This document shows positions 2,515-9,024 of a stretch of 53,292 nucleotides of DNA, piece after piece (within the stretch, counting starts at the first letter, position 1; the number at the start of each line of letters is the position of its first letter). Source of the stretch: an uncultured Candidatus Competibacteraceae bacterium (GTDB lineage Bacteria > Pseudomonadota > Gammaproteobacteria > Competibacterales > Competibacteraceae); NCBI GenBank assembly GCA_903879705.1, contig CAIRMO010000148.1, forward strand, positions 1-53,292, given 5' to 3'. Position numbers and translations under genes: made by a program. The notes beneath the pieces were generated by a model. That model ran no database searches and was not told the DNA's origin. It saw nothing but the letters and a program-made list of their open reading frames with translations.

Positions 2515-4134
2515 GTGCAAGAAGTCCACCCAACCTATGACCAGACCGCGCTGATTGCGGCGTTGTTGCAACCGGGGCGTTATCCGCACCCGGCGGCTGC
2601 GGTCGAACATTTGCAAACCCATATTTCACATATCCTGCTGGCTGGTGACTATGCCTATAAAGTCAAAAAACCGCTGAATCTGGGTTTTCTGGATTTTACC
2701 AGTCTGGCCCGGCGGAAATACTACTGTGAAGAGGAATTGCGGCTGAATGGCCGCCTCGCCCCGGAGTTGTATCTGGACTGCGTTCCGATCAGCGGCAGCG
2801 TCGCTGAACCTCGATGGGGCGATTCATCTGGCCCGGTGCTTGATTATGCGGTACGGATGCGGCGCTTTCCCCAGACGGCGCTGCTGGATCAGGTGCTGCT
2901 CGCCGGGCGCTTGGAGCCGCATCATCTTGACGCGCTGGCCCGGCGGCTGGCCGAGTTTCATCGCGCCATCCCCGCCGCCGATCCCGCTGCGCCGTTCGGA
3001 ACCCCGGAGCGGGTGCAACAGCCGATGCTGGACAATTTTACCCAAACCCGGCCCTTGCTGACTGATCCCGCTGATTTGTCCACGCTGGCGGCAGTGGAAC
3101 AGTGGACGCTGGCCGCTTTTGCTCGATTGTGCCCACGACTGGCCGAGCGCAAGGCTGGCGGCTGGATCCGCGAGGGCCACGGCGATCTGCATCTGGGCAA
3201 CATGGTGCTGACCACAGGCGACCAGGTGGTGATTTTCGATTGCATTGAATTTAACGAGGATTTCCGCTGGATTGATGTCATCAACGATCTGGCGTTTCTG
3301 ACCATGGACTTGTACTCGCGCCAGGCCGGACCCTTCGCTCAGCGGGTGCTGAACACCTATCTGGAGTACAGCGGCGATTTTGCCGGAGCGGCGCTGCTGG
3401 ATTATTACCAGATTTATCGGGCAATGGTGCGGGCCAAGATCAACGCGATTGAGGCCAGCGAGGATGACGTTCCCGAAGCCACCCGCGCCGTCGCCCGGGA
3501 ACAATGCCGGGCTTACCTGCAACTGGCGCTGAACCTGACGCGCCCACCTGCGCCGTTTTTATTGATTACCCACGGCGTTTCCGGTTCCGGCAAATCGCGG
3601 CGCACCAGTCAATTGCTGGAGATCTTCCCCGGCGCGATCCGGATTCGTGCCGATGTGGAGCGCAAGCGGCTGTTCGGACTTGGCCCGTTGGAGGATAGCA
3701 GTTCGGTATTCGGCCAGGGGTTGTATACCCCGGACGCCAGCGCCCGAACTTATCAGCGGTTGCTGGAACTGGCGGATCGCCTGCTGGTTGCCGGGCATCC
3801 AGTGCTGGTCGACGCCACTTTCCAGAAACGGGTCCACCGGCAACCGTTCCGCGAGCTGGCGGCCCGGCGCGGGGTTCCCTTCATCCTGCTGGATTGCGTG
3901 GCAGAACCGGCGGTCTTGCGCGAGCGGGTGGCGGCCCGGCGGTTGCGCGGTGACGATGCCGCCGAGGCCGATGTCGCGGTGCTGGAGCGGCAGCTTCAAT
4001 ATGACGAGCCGCCAGCCGCTGACGAGAACCCACTGAAAACCAATGGCGACGACGATCTTGAACGGCTGCGGGCGGCGATCTCCGCCGGTTCCCGCGATCG
4101 CACACCGGTCAAGGGGAGGTTGACGGCGATCTAG
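2515..4134 (+). CDS. Fused aminoglycoside-phosphotransferase-like / P-loop (AAA_33) kinase, 539 aa
   Basis: The N-terminal ~330 residues are an APH/choline-kinase-type fold: the catalytic loop HGDLHLGN starts at residue 222 (Asp224, Asn229), and IFDCIEFN downstream supplies the metal-binding Asp. The C-terminal ~190 residues are a small-molecule or polynucleotide-kinase-like P-loop domain with Walker A GVSGSGKS at 354-361 (Lys360). This two-domain arrangement is a widespread proteobacterial family usually annotated AAA family ATPase; its substrate is not known to me. The GTG at 2515 is preferred because CGGAG lies 8 bases upstream and the longer frame would run into the divergent PBP1B gene. 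It has no obvious operon partner; the next gene is in a compositionally different patch. Confidence 0.82.
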   Translation: MQEVHPTYDQTALIAALLQPGRYPHPAAAVEHLQTHISHILLAGDYAYKVKKPLNLGFLDFTSLARRKYYCEEELRLNGRLAPELYLDCVPISGSVAEPRWGDSSGPVLDYAVRMRRFPQTALLDQVLLAGRLEPHHLDALARRLAEFHRAIPAADPAAPFGTPERVQQPMLDNFTQTRPLLTDPADLSTLAAVEQWTLAAFARLCPRLAERKAGGWIREGHGDLHLGNMVLTTGDQVVIFDCIEFNEDFRWIDVINDLAFLTMDLYSRQAGPFAQRVLNTYLEYSGDFAGAALLDYYQIYRAMVRAKINAIEASEDDVPEATRAVAREQCRAYLQLALNLTRPPAPFLLITHGVSGSGKSRRTSQLLEIFPGAIRIRADVERKRLFGLGPLEDSSSVFGQGLYTPDASARTYQRLLELADRLLVAGHPVLVDATFQKRVHRQPFRELAARRGVPFILLDCVAEPAVLRERVAARRLRGDDAAEADVAVLERQLQYDEPPAADENPLKTNGDDDLERLRAAISAGSRDRTPVKGRLTAI

Positions 4135-4417
4135 CGGTTATTGGACGCCGATTGTTTTGCAGTCATAATTTTCGCAGTGGGCCATATAAAGTTCGGTTTT
4201 CGAGACCCACACTTTGCTCGAAGCGTAGCTGTCAGGAACGGGAGACGCTCAATCCGTAACCTGCTGGCGATGTACGAAGTGAATAACTTTGAAGACTCCG
4301 GTGCGGTCATTTCGCACACCGGGATTCGTGAGAGGAGCAGTCGGGTAACCGGCTGTCTTACCTCGATAGCGTAGCAGCAACGCTTTCTCTGCTGCAATTG
4401 GAAACAGGAGATCAATA
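4135..4417 (+). other. Intergenic region with consecutive hairpins ahead of the 82-aa orphan
   Basis: These 283 bases carry no credible gene. The right half can fold into successive stem-loops: CCGGTGCG at 4298-4305 against CGCACACCGG at 4313-4322; CAGTCGG-GTAA-CCGGCTG around 4338-4355, with a GNRA-type GTAA loop; and GCAGCA/TGCTGC around 4374-4394. They sit immediately before the Shine-Dalgarno (CAGGAG, 4405-4410) and ATG at 4418. That position would suit a structured 5' leader or a small RNA. Structure is inferred from complementarity only, and no known RNA family was recognised. Confidence 0.4.
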
Positions 4418-4666
4418 ATGGCTATTTCTGGCTCAAAACTACAATCTTTGCTAACCAAAGGTGAACCTGAAGCTACTTTTCTTGGGAAGGCAACAAAAGA
4501 GTGTGGTGAAACATTTACCCTAAAGAAAGAACAACCGGGTTCTCCAACAGGAGGTGCAAATTTGACCAGAAAATACTTAGGCTCAAAGGGATCAAAAGTT
4601 GTCACACATATAAATAATGGAAGTGGAAAAATTTTTGGGGTAACGACTACTGCTGAGCCACTGTAA
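4418..4666 (+). CDS. Hypothetical 82-aa protein
   Basis: I do not recognise this protein. It is soluble, rich in Lys, Gly, Thr and Ser, has no membrane segment or signal peptide, and has a single Cys in the KECGETF stretch. The start is well supported by CAGGAG spaced 7 bases from the ATG. It lies 120 bases upstream of the TerD-FGE gene in the same orientation and shares its low GC (24 of 60 bases in 4441-4500). It therefore probably arrived with that gene and may be its partner or substrate. A hairpin with a T-rich tail lies between the two genes, so they may be transcribed unequally. Confidence 0.6.
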   Translation: MAISGSKLQSLLTKGEPEATFLGKATKECGETFTLKKEQPGSPTGGANLTRKYLGSKGSKVVTHINNGSGKIFGVTTTAEPL

Positions 4667-4735
4667 AATGCTTAAAGTATAGTCGTTCAGGAAAAAGAGC
4701 CTTGCACTAGGCTAGTAATTGGTTATTTATATATT

Positions 4736-4761
4736 CCCCCGACTTTGCCGGGGGATATTTT
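4736..4761 (+). terminator. Rho-independent terminator or attenuator
   Basis: A six-base stem CCCCCG (4736-4741) pairs with CGGGGG (4749-4754) around a seven-base loop and is followed by ATATTTT. It sits between the 82-aa gene and the TerD-FGE start at 4787, so it could end the first transcript or attenuate readthrough. Confidence 0.6.
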
Positions 4762-4786
4762 AAGACTTCAAGAGGAGAATTTGAAA

Positions 4787-6208
4787 ATGAGTGTCATGAA
4801 CATTTCGCGTGGTCAAAGGATTAAATTGACTGATATTATCTCTAACGGTAATGAGTTTCAACTAGGCATTGCTTGTAATAGTCCAGGATTAGTCGTTGAT
4901 TTTTCTTGTTTTAGATTGGATGCCAGTGAGAAATTATCAGATGACCGCTATATGACATTTTTTAATCAACCCGCTACTCCTTGTGGTGGTGTTAGCCTCA
5001 GTCCCCCTACAGGAGACAGTGCAGGTTTTGCTATCACACTTCAAAAGCTGCCAACAACTATCCATCATTTGATGATTACAGCGGCTATTGATGGAAGTGG
5101 TACGATGTCTCAGCTAAAAAGCAGCTATGTCCGATTTCTTTCCAAGGGAACCGAAGTAGCTCGCTTTGATTTTACAGGTACGGACTTTTCAGCAGAACGT
5201 GCTTTAATGTTGTTGGATATTTACCGTAAGGATAATACTTGGCGAATTTCTGCGGTAGGCCAAGGTTTCAATGGTGGTTTGGACGCTCTAGTTAAGCATT
5301 TTGGGGGGTATGTTGATGAAATGACCTCTAGTTTACCATCTCCCCATCCCTCTGATACTTTGTCAAGTCAATCAAAAAGTAAAGCTGTATTGATTAAACC
5401 TGATCAAACACATCGAATAACGGTTGAAAAGAAATCAGGGTCTCCTGAAAAGATAGCATTATCGGTATTTCATGACCGGTTGCGCGATGGCAGCAATGGC
5501 CCCACGATGATTACGATTCCAGCAGGTGAGTTCTGGATGGGATCGCCAGAGATCGAAGCTGAACGGAATAGCGGCAATGAGCGTCGGCATCGGGTCAAGA
5601 TTGAACAGCCTTTTAGTATCGGCAAATACGCGGTGACTTTTGATGAGTACGACCGTTTTTGTGCCGACTGGGGTAAATTCAAACCCGATGATCAAAAGTG
5701 GGGTCGCGGCAACCGGCCAGTGATTAACGTCAGTGGGTTGGATGCGCTGGAATATACCGAGTGGCTATCGGAGCAGACGGAACAAAACTATCGGCTGCCT
5801 ACCGAGGCGGAGTGGGAATATGCGGCGCGAGCGGGAACGAAAACGGCATTCTGGTGGGGTGATGACATTAACCCGGATCAAGCGAATTACTACGGGGATT
5901 ACACTTATCGCAATGGACTCAAGGGTGTGTGTCGTCAAAAAACTGTCCCGGTTGATCAATTTAAGCCGAATCCGTGGGGGTTATATCAAGTGCATGGAAA
6001 TGTCTGGGAATGGACTGGCTCCCAGGATGACGAAAATTATGGCGGGGCAGAAATGCTGTGCGCTAATAAAGATACAGACGGCCCTTTGTCGGAGCGGGGC
6101 GGCTCCTGGAACGACATACCCGCGAGGGTGCGTTCCGCACACCGCGACGGGGGCGATCCTGCTTTCCGCTACGCCGACCAGGGATTCCGTCTCGCCAGAT
6201 CCTTATAA
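4787..6208 (+). CDS. TerD-domain / FGE (formylglycine-generating-enzyme-like, C-type-lectin fold) fusion, 473 aa
   Basis: Residues ~1-180 match the TerD fold: a CNSPGLVVDFSCFRLDAS-type strand, then FFNQPATPCGG, LQKLP, and the closing VGQGFNGGLDALVKHFGG. A Ser/Pro-rich linker (~186-235) leads to an FGE-sulfatase domain beginning near TMITIPAGEFWMGSPE (residue ~240), with RLPTEAEWEYAARAG, GLYQVHGNVWEW and a terminal RGGSW...GFRLA block. No cysteine sits in the last block where genuine FGE has its catalytic pair, so formylglycine formation is unlikely. The ATG at 4787 has AGAGGAG nine bases upstream. GC differs sharply between halves (25/60 in 5041-5100, 43/60 in 6121-6180), suggesting a domain graft. 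TerD domains belong to stress and phage-conflict systems; FGE-type lectin folds are common displays for diversified binding surfaces. Confidence 0.85.
   Translation: MSVMNISRGQRIKLTDIISNGNEFQLGIACNSPGLVVDFSCFRLDASEKLSDDRYMTFFNQPATPCGGVSLSPPTGDSAGFAITLQKLPTTIHHLMITAAIDGSGTMSQLKSSYVRFLSKGTEVARFDFTGTDFSAERALMLLDIYRKDNTWRISAVGQGFNGGLDALVKHFGGYVDEMTSSLPSPHPSDTLSSQSKSKAVLIKPDQTHRITVEKKSGSPEKIALSVFHDRLRDGSNGPTMITIPAGEFWMGSPEIEAERNSGNERRHRVKIEQPFSIGKYAVTFDEYDRFCADWGKFKPDDQKWGRGNRPVINVSGLDALEYTEWLSEQTEQNYRLPTEAEWEYAARAGTKTAFWWGDDINPDQANYYGDYTYRNGLKGVCRQKTVPVDQFKPNPWGLYQVHGNVWEWTGSQDDENYGGAEMLCANKDTDGPLSERGGSWNDIPARVRSAHRDGGDPAFRYADQGFRLARSL
6098..6199 (+). other. Putative DGR variable region at the 3' end of the TerD-FGE gene
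   Basis: In frame, the segment reads GGSWN, then a run whose codons are GAC, ATA, CAC, GAC, GGG, GGC, GAT, GCT, TTC, TAC, GCC and GAC, spaced by invariant-looking CGT TCC GCA and CGC codons, and ends CAGGGATTCCGTCTCGCC. In diversity-generating-retroelement targets of the FGE type the same block is templated by AAC-rich codons, with changes confined to template adenines. Most of these codons (GAC, GGC, TAC, GCC, TTC) are reachable from AAC by such changes. No reverse transcriptase or template repeat lies in the window, so the assignment is inferential. Confidence 0.5.
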
Positions 6209-6439
6209 CCCTTTATTCTTTATCCTTTTACCCTTTACCGCTCGCTGCGATATTACTCGCGGTTCCAATTCAAAACCGGACATGTATCAGCGGTAAGTTA
6301 TTGTTTTAGCGCAACTAAAGCCTAAATAGCCTTGGCAATGTCTGGATCAGCATTGGGGTCTCTACAGGTGTTGTTTCTGGAAGATTTCAATTACCCCTGC
6401 CTATAATCCGCTTTTTCACGACTCAACGATGGGGGCGCG

Positions 6440-7429
6440 ATGGCAAAGTACGACGTTTACGGAATCGGCAATGCACTGGTGGATATGGAATATGAGGTCG
6501 AGGTGACTGACCTGGAGGCGCTGGGCATTGATAAGGGCGTGATGACCCTGGTGGATGAGGAGCAGCAGTTGCGAATGATGGCGCATCTGGCCGCCCATCC
6601 TCATCAGCGCAGTTCGGGCGGGTCGGCGGCCAATTCGATGATCGCGGTCCGCCAGTTCGGCGGGAGCAGTTTCTATTCCTGCAAGGTGGCGGGCGATGCT
6701 CTCGGTCACTTCTACATGCAGGATCTGCTCGATGGCGGGGTGAATACCAATCACCACACCGAAAGGGAGCCGGGCCATACCGGCCGCTGTGTGGTGCTGG
6801 TCACGCCGGATAGCGACCGGACGCTTTGCACCTTCCTGGGGATCAGCGGCGAGTTGTCTGCGAAGGAACTGGTCGAGGACGCCCTGTGTGACTCGGCCTA
6901 CTTCTATATGGAAGGCTATCTGGTGACTTCGGAAACCGCCCGCCAAGCCTGTATTGCCGCCAAGCGCCTGGCCGAGGCGGCGGGGGTCAAGACCGCGATT
7001 TCCTTGTCTGACCCCAATATGGTCCGGTTTTTCAAGACCGGGGTACTGGAGATGATCGGTTCCGGCGTGGATCTGCTGTTCGCCAATGAGGACGAGGCCA
7101 GAGACATGGCCGGCGCTGCGGACCTGGGCAGCACGGTCGAGTACCTGAAGACCCTCAGCCGCGAATTTGTGATTACCCGCGGTTCCAAAGGCGCGCTGGT
7201 TTGGGACGGTCAGGCGCTGATCGACATTGACCCGGTTCCGGTGGACGCGGTGGACACGGTCGGGGCCGGGGATATGTTCGCCGGAGCGTTCCTCTATGGT
7301 CGGGTTCAAGGTTGGGAACACCGGCGCGCCGGGGCCTTGGCTTCGGCGGCGGCGGCCCGGTTGGTGACTCGTCTAGGGCCGCGCATGGCGGCAACGGAGA
7401 CTCAGGCGATTTTGCAAGGCTTTCGGTAG
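6440..7429 (+). CDS. PfkB-family carbohydrate/adenosine kinase, 329 aa
   Basis: This cytosolic ribokinase-fold enzyme transfers phosphate from ATP to a sugar or nucleoside hydroxyl. The start GIGNALVDM carries the conserved substrate-binding Asp, followed by SGGSAANSMIAVRQFGG, and the signature VDTVGAGDMFAGAF near residue 275 includes the catalytic Asp. NEDEARDM is also typical. The overall pattern resembles the adenosine-kinase branch of the family, but specificity cannot be assigned by eye. GGGGGC precedes the ATG. It converges on era with a 72-base gap and appears monocistronic. The 230 bases before it, after the FGE gene, hold only T-rich sequence with no further feature I could support. 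Confidence 0.88.
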   Translation: MAKYDVYGIGNALVDMEYEVEVTDLEALGIDKGVMTLVDEEQQLRMMAHLAAHPHQRSSGGSAANSMIAVRQFGGSSFYSCKVAGDALGHFYMQDLLDGGVNTNHHTEREPGHTGRCVVLVTPDSDRTLCTFLGISGELSAKELVEDALCDSAYFYMEGYLVTSETARQACIAAKRLAEAAGVKTAISLSDPNMVRFFKTGVLEMIGSGVDLLFANEDEARDMAGAADLGSTVEYLKTLSREFVITRGSKGALVWDGQALIDIDPVPVDAVDTVGAGDMFAGAFLYGRVQGWEHRRAGALASAAAARLVTRLGPRMAATETQAILQGFR

Positions 7430-7501
7430 TCATCGAAGGTGTCATTTCGGGTTATAGCAGAACGCGCATCGGGCGATGGACTGGTGGGGTGAGCGGCCTG
7501 A

Positions 7502-8437
7502 TCAGGACGGGTCAGCGTAGCCCAGACTGCGCAACGCCCGTTCGTCGTCGGACCAGCCCTCACGGACCTTGACCCAGGTTTCCAGATAGACCTTGCGATC
7601 CAGCAGACGCTCCAGGTCCTGGCGGGCTTGGCGACCGACTTCGCGCAAGGTCGCGCCTTTTTCGCCGATGACGATGCCTTTTTGGCTGGCGCGTTCAACC
7701 CAGATCAGGGCATGGATACGCACCAGCCGCTCATCTTCAATAAACTGTTCGATTTCGACGGTCAGTGCATAGGGCAGTTCTTCACGCAGCAATCGGGTCA
7801 ATTTCTCGCGGACCAGTTCCGCCGCCAAAAACCGCTCGCTGGCGGTGGTGAGCTGATCTTCCGGGAACAGGAAATCTTGCACCGGCAACAACCGGGCGAT
7901 GGCCTGCTCCAGTTCCGCCACGTTATCGCCCTTGAGCGCCGACAACGGCGTCACTTCGGTGAAATTCCGTTTTGCGGCGATCTCTTGCAGGAACGGCAGC
8001 AGGCGTGATTTGTCGGCGATCCGGTCAACCTTGTTGACCGCCAGCACCACTGGCCCGGCAAAATCGACCAGTCGATGCAAAACATCCTGATCCTCATCAG
8101 TCCAGCGCAGCGCCTCAATCAGGAACACCACGGTATCGACATAGCCAAGAACACTGGCCGCGGCCCGGTTCAGATAACGGTTCATCGCACGCCGACCCTG
8201 GCGGTGCAGGCCCGGCGTGTCCACATACACGATTTGCGCGTCGGGCAGCGTCTGAATGCCGAGGATGACATGGCGGGTGGTTTGCGGTTTAGGGGAAGTG
8301 ATGCTCAATTTCTGGCCGAGCAACCGGTTGATCAGGGTGGACTTGCCGACGTTGGGCCGACCCAGCAGAGCAGCGTAACCAGCGCGAACCGGGGCTGACA
8401 TCGGCTGGCTTAAATTTGTCATTTTAGGGTTTTTCAT
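7502..8437 (-). CDS. era: GTPase Era, 311 aa
   Basis: Era is an essential GTPase that binds the 3' end of 16S rRNA during small-subunit maturation. G1 GRPNVGKST, the switch SPKPQTTRH, G3 DTPG and G4 NKVD are all present. The C-terminal KH domain has GEKGATLREVGRQARQ and ends RALRSLGYADPS. The N-terminal ~15 residues before AGYAALLGRPNVGKS are a little longer than in Escherichia coli; ATGs at codons 1, 6 and 13 are all possible and none has a clear Shine-Dalgarno. Normally era follows rnc directly. Here a serine recombinase gene on the opposite strand fills the space, only 14 bases from this start, so era must be expressed by readthrough of about 590 bases or from a promoter inside that gene. 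Confidence 0.95.
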   Translation of the reverse strand: MKNPKMTNLSQPMSAPVRAGYAALLGRPNVGKSTLINRLLGQKLSITSPKPQTTRHVILGIQTLPDAQIVYVDTPGLHRQGRRAMNRYLNRAAASVLGYVDTVVFLIEALRWTDEDQDVLHRLVDFAGPVVLAVNKVDRIADKSRLLPFLQEIAAKRNFTEVTPLSALKGDNVAELEQAIARLLPVQDFLFPEDQLTTASERFLAAELVREKLTRLLREELPYALTVEIEQFIEDERLVRIHALIWVERASQKGIVIGEKGATLREVGRQARQDLERLLDRKVYLETWVKVREGWSDDERALRSLGYADPS

Positions 8438-8451
8438 AGTACTATGGTGCC

Positions 8452-9024
8452 ATGAAACTCAGTGTATGGGCTAAATTACAAGGGTTGCAGTACAGGTCGG
8501 CCTGGAAGATGTGGAAGGCCGGTAAGCTGCCGGTTCCCGCCGAACAACTGCCGACCGGGACGATCATCGTGCATCCGCCGGCGGCGACTGCCGATAGCGG
8601 CGTGGCGTTGTATATCCGGGTGTCCAGCGCCAGCCAGCGAGCCGACCTGGATCGCCAAGTGGCTCGTTTGGCGGTGTATGCCGCTGAAAACGGCCTGCGC
8701 GTCGTGGAGGTCGTCAAGGAAATCGGATCGGGGCTGAACGGTCACCGGCGCGGTTTGATACGGCTGTTGCGCAATCCGAAGGTTACGACCGTGGTGGTCG
8801 AACACCGCGACCGCCTGATACCGTTTGGCTTTGGGTACATCGAAGCGGCGCTGGCGGCGCAAGGCCGGACAGTCGTCGTGATCGATCCTGCCGAAGTCCA
8901 GGATGACCTGGGGCAGGATGTAGCCGAAGTACTCACCTCGCTGTGCGCCCAGTTATACGGTCAGCGGGGCGCAACGAACCGGGCAAAACGCGCCTTGGCG
9001 GCGATGGCGTGCGAACTGTCCTGA
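8452..9024 (+). CDS. IS607-family serine recombinase (TnpA-like), 190 aa, without tnpB
   Basis: The N-terminal ~45 residues form a MerR-like winged helix (VWAKLQGLQYRSAWKMWKAG), as in IS607 transposases. The resolvase-type catalytic domain follows: YIRVSSASQRADLDRQ supplies the nucleophilic serine, GSGLNGHRRGLIRLL comes next, and VEHRDRLIPFGFGYIEAAL is the conserved RDR-type motif. Length is normal for IS607 TnpA (roughly 190-215 residues). The partner tnpB gene that usually follows is missing: the stop codon is one base from the stop of rnc on the other strand, and the start is 14 bases from the start of era. The frame and catalytic residues look intact, so this is either a very recent remnant or a retained solo recombinase. 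Confidence 0.87.
   Translation: MKLSVWAKLQGLQYRSAWKMWKAGKLPVPAEQLPTGTIIVHPPAATADSGVALYIRVSSASQRADLDRQVARLAVYAAENGLRVVEVVKEIGSGLNGHRRGLIRLLRNPKVTTVVVEHRDRLIPFGFGYIEAALAAQGRTVVVIDPAEVQDDLGQDVAEVLTSLCAQLYGQRGATNRAKRALAAMACELS

Follow-up and report, generated by a model that had tools for sequence, protein, structure and literature searches.

The C-terminal tail of a TerD-FGE fusion protein, encoded in a 53,292-nucleotide stretch of DNA from an uncultured Candidatus Competibacteraceae bacterium (hereafter the window), is likely an orphaned and frozen remote variable region (VR) of a diversity-generating retroelement (DGR) that circulates in this family. The DGR origin of the VR is well supported and present activity is unlikely; its diversification appears to have stopped. 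The window belongs to a draft genome (G000) of 3,624,787 bases in 148 contigs (completeness 100, contamination 0.14), and the features of the locus are collected in Table 1.

Table 1. The TerD-FGE gene and its 3' flank, in window positions.
Feature	Positions	Strand	Remarks
TerD-FGE fusion gene	4787..6208	+	473 aa from ATG 4787; purine-rich stretch 5' of gene
TerD domain	4796..5302	+	PF02342, E 3.4e-33; residues 18-186 of ORF counted from 4745
FGE-sulfatase / C-type-lectin-like domain	5498..6199	+	PF03781, E 4.4e-48
Variable region (VR) GGSW...GFRL	6098..6193	+	few non-adenine differences from the L050 TR
Pyrimidine-rich 3' element	6209..6237	+	directly after stop codon
Site of relatives' GC-rich hairpin	6238..6264	+	in the window, no stem of at least 5 bp with a short loop

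The initial annotation had described a segment with fixed anchors and variable codons at the end of a TerD and FGE protein, and the tail and its anchors are indeed present as described, positions 6098-6208 encoding GGSWNDIPARVRSAHRDGGDPAFRYADQGFRLARSL followed by the stop codon. The TerD domain belongs to its family by score (PF02342, 115.1 bits, gathering score 25.3), and the VR lies, as in DGR targets, at the 3' end of a gene with a C-type-lectin (CLec)/FGE fold. In the AlphaFold prediction the FGE part (residues about 221-472) was good and most of the TerD part had a pLDDT below 50; the FGE part matched PvdO, formylglycine-generating enzymes and the Treponema DGR variable protein 2y3c. The C-terminal cysteines of FGE are catalytic. 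These residues, present in the aligned 8aru, are missing from TerD-FGE, and by this mark the protein is not a catalytic FGE, because no cysteine follows residue 424 (numbering from 4790) and the VR is cysteine-free. The FGE tail may bind a ligand. Among the matches listed, the closest TerD relative within this family (55%, genome G016) is fused to a TerF-type vWA domain, not to FGE; this gene (G016:C361, L227:1006-2367; TerD plus TerF-type vWA, PF10138) is adjoined, by eye, by a second TerD-like ORF.

As reference we used the template repeat (TR) of L050 (G019:C26), the nearest TR found, from another genus of the same family and at a locus that also holds a reverse transcriptase (RT) and a VR; its sequence is GGSWNNKPARVRSANRNRDDPANRNNNQGFRLA. 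The window VR mismatches this TR at 12/25 adenines and at 7/77 non-adenine positions (one-sided Fisher p 6.9e-5), that is, its differences are concentrated at TR adenines as in DGR targets, the TR being here that of another genus. All seven non-adenine mismatches (7/7) fall at third codon positions, and at first and second codon positions 0/44 non-adenines and 12/24 adenines differ (p 3.7e-7). In 18 TR/VR pairs that share a locus we counted 0-4 non-adenine mismatches, with at most two in 17 of them. Since the TR of G037 and the VR of G019 also differ at 7/74 non-adenine positions, the seven differences of the window VR may reflect TR divergence between genera and are therefore no clock by themselves. 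Across 32 tails that carry the 3' element, a set of 32-residue tails passing the patterns and drawn from the loci of best hits (not all VRs of the family; other lengths and the tail C103a of the window's genome were left out), amino-acid entropy was 1.8-3.4 bits at TR-adenine codons and 0 at eleven anchor codons. Four adenine-free codons also vary (codon 9, 2.6 bits; codon 22, 2.3; codon 24, 1.35; codon 11, 1.15), an effect due at least in part to the mixture of two TR classes in this set.

It could be argued that the FGE tail diverged in the ordinary way and that its DGR resemblance is that of a generic FGE motif. The anchors (GGSW...R.A...GFR) are unspecific as DGR evidence, being shared by non-DGR FGE proteins encoded on contigs C4 and C66 of the same genome. 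Three control tails from these contigs (two on C4, one on C66) mismatch the L050 TR at 15-16/25 adenines and at 30, 31 and 34/77 non-adenines, and are thus somewhat adenine-biased too (one-sided Fisher p 0.033-0.13; p 4.5e-4 to 0.012 when only first and second codon positions are counted), so that an adenine-biased mismatch to a TR is, alone, equally unspecific. Non-DGR tails also vary somewhat: the C4 and C66 genes have counterparts in three genomes of the same genus, and in the resulting 18 orthologue pairs bodies are 0.78-0.92 identical and tails 13/24 to 24/24, the C4 group (bodies 0.78-0.89, tails 13-23/24) including two pairs (13/24, 14/24) that approach the tail identity of the window's pairs. 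Nevertheless, since the controls share the adenine bias, the telling measure is the scarcity of non-adenine change, and here the window VR (7/77) stands far from the controls (30-34/77). Moreover, in none of the 18 control pairs does tail identity exceed body identity by more than 0.15, as it does between the window gene and its C104 paralogue (see below), and the non-coding 3' element and hairpin described below are absent from the three control genes. We therefore regard ordinary divergence as highly improbable and retain a DGR origin of the tail.

The window VR, used as a DNA probe of its own genome, found two clear paralogous tails, on C104 (80% identity, in a protein kinase-FGE gene) and on C103 (C103a, 76%); C103 bears two more FGE genes (b and c) with tails less similar to that of the window. 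Against the L050 TR, adenine and non-adenine mismatches were 14/25 and 11/77 in C104, 16/25 and 14/77 in C103a, 14/25 and 24/77 in C103b, and 11/25 and 17/77 in C103c. We did not accept C103b and C103c as firm VRs of the same DGR, as their adenine bias is weak (p 0.024 and 0.033, a point in favour of ordinary divergence), they are hairpin-free and they failed the 3'-element pattern.

The window and C104 bodies share 82/193 residues, their synonymous change being saturated (about 90 of 120 sites), and their tails share 16/24, with about 5 of 17 synonymous differences (Fisher 3.5e-4 against the body); identity is thus 0.67 in the tail and 0.42 in the body. Bodies so far apart with tails so close indicate a template once shared. 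Compared with C103a the window body is 0.80 identical and the tail 11/24, the VR showing an excess of nonsynonymous change (p 1.7e-4), and compared with C103c the values are 0.78, 10/24 and p 4e-6. The synonymous rate between the window gene and C103a does not differ from VR to body (p 0.61), and therefore no recent re-templating is shown by this pair, in which only the nonsynonymous excess favours diversification. The window, C104 and C103a tails differ pairwise at 11, 12 and 15 of 72 non-adenine sites (14-26 in pairs with C103b or C103c), so that at most one of them fits any single TR.

Neither a DGR-type RT nor any TR was found in the window, in the rest of the 3.62-Mb draft assembly of 148 contigs or in the three genomes of the same genus. 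The absence of both from the 53-kb window, stated in the initial annotation, is thereby confirmed and extended, and the genome-wide search for an RT that it had proposed was negative by every route taken. A Pfam RVT_1 search of the genome gave a single hit, under the cut-off, to a piece on C74 that we rejected as a DGR RT; BPP-1 Brt matched nothing at E 0.001 in the four genomes of the genus (15/39 family genomes have matches at this threshold, some weak); the L050 RT gave no match at E 1e-5 in the same four; and a 16-row DGR-RT profile, taken to E up to 10, found only this same piece in the window's genome and two hits in G026, none of which we count as DGR. The template repeat that had also been proposed was sought with the L050 TR as DNA probe (at most 22 candidates scored per genome) and, among the matches listed, this probe found four places in the window's genome (the window, C104 and two on C103) and one in G028, all of them FGE tails.

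The C74 hit (first 399 bases, minus strand, at the contig end) is an N-terminal piece to which the group II maturase model gives 96 bits (residues 35-131/133) and the DGR profile 28.5, and we take it for the start of a group II-type maturase; full-length DGR RTs reach 92-132 bits with the maturase model, and the rejection of C74 therefore rests on the contrast between the two scores. Of the two G026 hits, L083 proved to be a maturase of group II (378.8 bits, cut-off 300), and L085, an unclassified RT-like protein, missed every cut-off (best, Drt3a with 43.8 bits). This last protein (L085:586-2334, G026:C18) has 583 aa, and its closest model is the antiviral Drt3a.

Downstream of the stop codon, the 3'-element pattern was passed by 32 tails, the window's included; C103a missed the pattern and resembles it by eye. 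In the 31 of these tails with at least 95 nt of downstream sequence, a hairpin of at least 6 bp with a loop of 3-5 nt occurs in 26 (0.024 per shuffle), and a GNA triloop closed by C-G on a stem of at least 6 bp in 19 (0.0002 per shuffled sequence). GNA triloops make unusually stable DNA mini-hairpins. The hairpins of the family sit 35-51 nt past GFRL, and we noticed those with GNA loops 3' of VRs in L040, L050, L089-L115 and L195-L213. The C104 hairpin has 9 bp and a GAA loop; the downstream hairpin is absent in the window and C103a, and the DNA fold at this site has z -1.0 in the window and z -3.0 in the C104 copy. Since five of the 31 tails have no 6-bp hairpin, and that of the VR next to an intact RT in L049 (G004) has merely 5 bp, absence of the hairpin is not unique to the window. 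The 3' element may act as a target-recognition signal. In the phage BPP-1, according to the accessible sections of that study, a hairpin downstream of the VR is needed for homing, with loops of 4 nt (GRNA) and not the 3-nt GNA of this family, and distinct in this from the hairpin-free window (PMC3240598).

These results bear on whether a DGR is active now, with RT and TR located on a plasmid, prophage or other piece that escaped assembly and reaching the window gene in trans. A draft of 148 contigs may have missed an RT, trans activity of DGRs has been reported (PMC10907252, in its available part), the hairpin is kept in C104, and genome G018 has five recently homogenised VRs with no RT above 48% identity to the L050 RT in its assembly. 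On the other side, the listed score puts the assembly at 100% completeness and all searches for RT and TR were negative, the genome's own VRs are too far apart at non-adenine sites for a single TR to fit more than one, and the window lacks the hairpin whose disruption in BPP-1 made homing nearly undetectable (PMC3240598, accessible sections). We consider an active DGR improbable and favour an orphaned VR; of the initial proposal of a DGR VR in trans, what stands is a DGR-type VR by descent, located away from any RT, and not a working trans-acting DGR.

A version of the orphan reading is that the gene was acquired horizontally after its VR had been diversified, the active phase having taken place in a donor and never in the lineage of this genome. 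Consistent with this, the surroundings of the gene are AT-rich (GC 0.38-0.56 in 400-base windows over 4400-6199, compared with 0.58-0.67 over 3000-4199 and 6400-7999), and its FGE part has relatives of 58-77% identity in its own genome and none above 51% in the three genomes of the same genus. The window and C104 tails are, however, alike on bodies far apart, and transfer would therefore need one donor, or donors with a common DGR. We find this version rather unlikely. An 82-aa ORF with no Pfam family (4418-4666) precedes the TerD-FGE gene inside the AT-rich stretch (4200-6400).

Complete DGRs are found elsewhere in the family, where RT, TR and VR of sister genera occur together at one locus. 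RTs at least 65% identical to that of L050 are present in 5/39 family genomes (G001, G004, G019, G020 and G037, that of G020 truncated by the contig end), and RT fragments in 4/39: a 36-residue RT start about 440 nt 3' of a VR gene (G015:C176, L238:3368-3475), an RT start joined, without the core, to a late RT segment (G005:C61, L239:1971-2132), a DGR RT gene fragment (G025:C223, L240:1819-1869) and a fragment partly explained by the contig end (G036:C227, L241:1-229). We read these fragments as DGRs at various stages of decay. Matches to VR DNA are present in at least 22/39 genomes, some generic FGE matches included (at most 21 candidates scored per genome).

In G018 a first class comprises five VRs at five places (L195, L202, L203, L204 and L205) with 0-2/71 non-adenine differences, and a second class five VRs with 2-11/72 differences. 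The members of the first class look recently co-templated, and such near-identity is the outcome of either recent homing in trans or very recent loss; with these VRs recently homogenised and no close RT, absence of an RT from an assembly does not date its loss. In G037, where RT and TR are present, a remote VR differs from the TR of that genome at 8/69 non-adenine sites, and non-adenine divergence therefore shows that a target has fallen out of register but need not mean that the RT is lost. We suggest as a yardstick the mutual non-adenine divergence of the VRs of a genome, which is usable even where the RT is unassembled: 0-2/71, as in the one G018 class, would mean recent co-templating, and 11-15/72, as in the window's genome, VRs out of register. 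Ten VR proteins, three of them from the window's genome, were scanned with Pfam, and FGE was found in 10/10, caspase in four, kinase in two, TIR in one and nothing else in three; L195, a caspase-FGE, is the only member of the first G018 class scanned. TerD, from the window gene, is an additional carrier domain.

We propose that an ancestor or donor would have had an RT that made errors at adenines as it copied a TR rich in this base, and that the cDNA would have replaced the 3' end in several genes with FGE domains, the targets probably being recognised through the common pyrimidine-rich 3' element and hairpin. RT and TR would since have been lost or left unassembled, and TerD-FGE would retain a single fixed variant of its binding face, with selection keeping the anchors and third positions drifting. 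More tentatively, DGRs may be losable generators, in which RT and TR decay and FGE-tailed sensors persist as fixed germline receptors, the window gene representing a late stage; the sensors, fusions to TerD, caspase, kinase or TIR domains, would each stay fixed in a single variant that selection had favoured. If true, this shows the fate of hypermutable receptors once the mutator is lost, and VRs by themselves trace former DGR activity. TerD would also join the domains linked to binding tails made by DGRs.

Several of these features have precedents. The remote variable proteins of cyanobacterial DGRs likewise carry a C-terminal CLec domain on signalling domains, with the VR at the 3' end and the RT distant; in the available portion of that work the targets are linked to a DGR in their own genome, unlike in the window's genome, with no detected RT or TR (PMC7517822). 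The Thiohalocapsa PB-PSB1 DGRs, in the accessible text, also have several targets, their trans activity being inferred from a perfect non-adenine match, and one target (DGR 1) is without observed diversity; that genome has RTs and TRs, unlike the window's (PMC10907252). Remote or trans DGR targets are therefore known already, and the novelty that the initial annotation gave to a trans-acting DGR falls away; what is newer is the TerD carrier and the loss of the RT with targets kept. 'TerD' is not mentioned in the text of PMC7517822 or PMC10907252. DGR-associated conflict systems, which as putative defence systems also comprise DGR-diversified effector domains of FGS/FGE type, do include TerD among their named nucleotide-sensing domains, and in the sections available no TerD-FGE DGR target or RT loss such as that of the window is described (PMC7159879). 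In the open-licence literature, as far as its accessible text goes, we found no TerD-FGE fusion described as a DGR target in work on DGRs and TerD, and in the same literature no report of Contendobacter DGRs and no relevant one of DGR targets without RT or of relic or decayed DGRs.

Two observations from the surroundings of these genes may be added. On C103 (G000:C103, L215:4347-11515), the three FGE genes and an ankyrin-repeat protein share, by eye, the start NNEPREKLRELIVEYGR..., and the common N-terminal part of the four proteins has no Pfam match in any of them. Within the window, a serine recombinase (8452-9024, PF00239 resolvase domain, IS607-like by eye) sits between genes that by eye are Era-like and RNase III-like.
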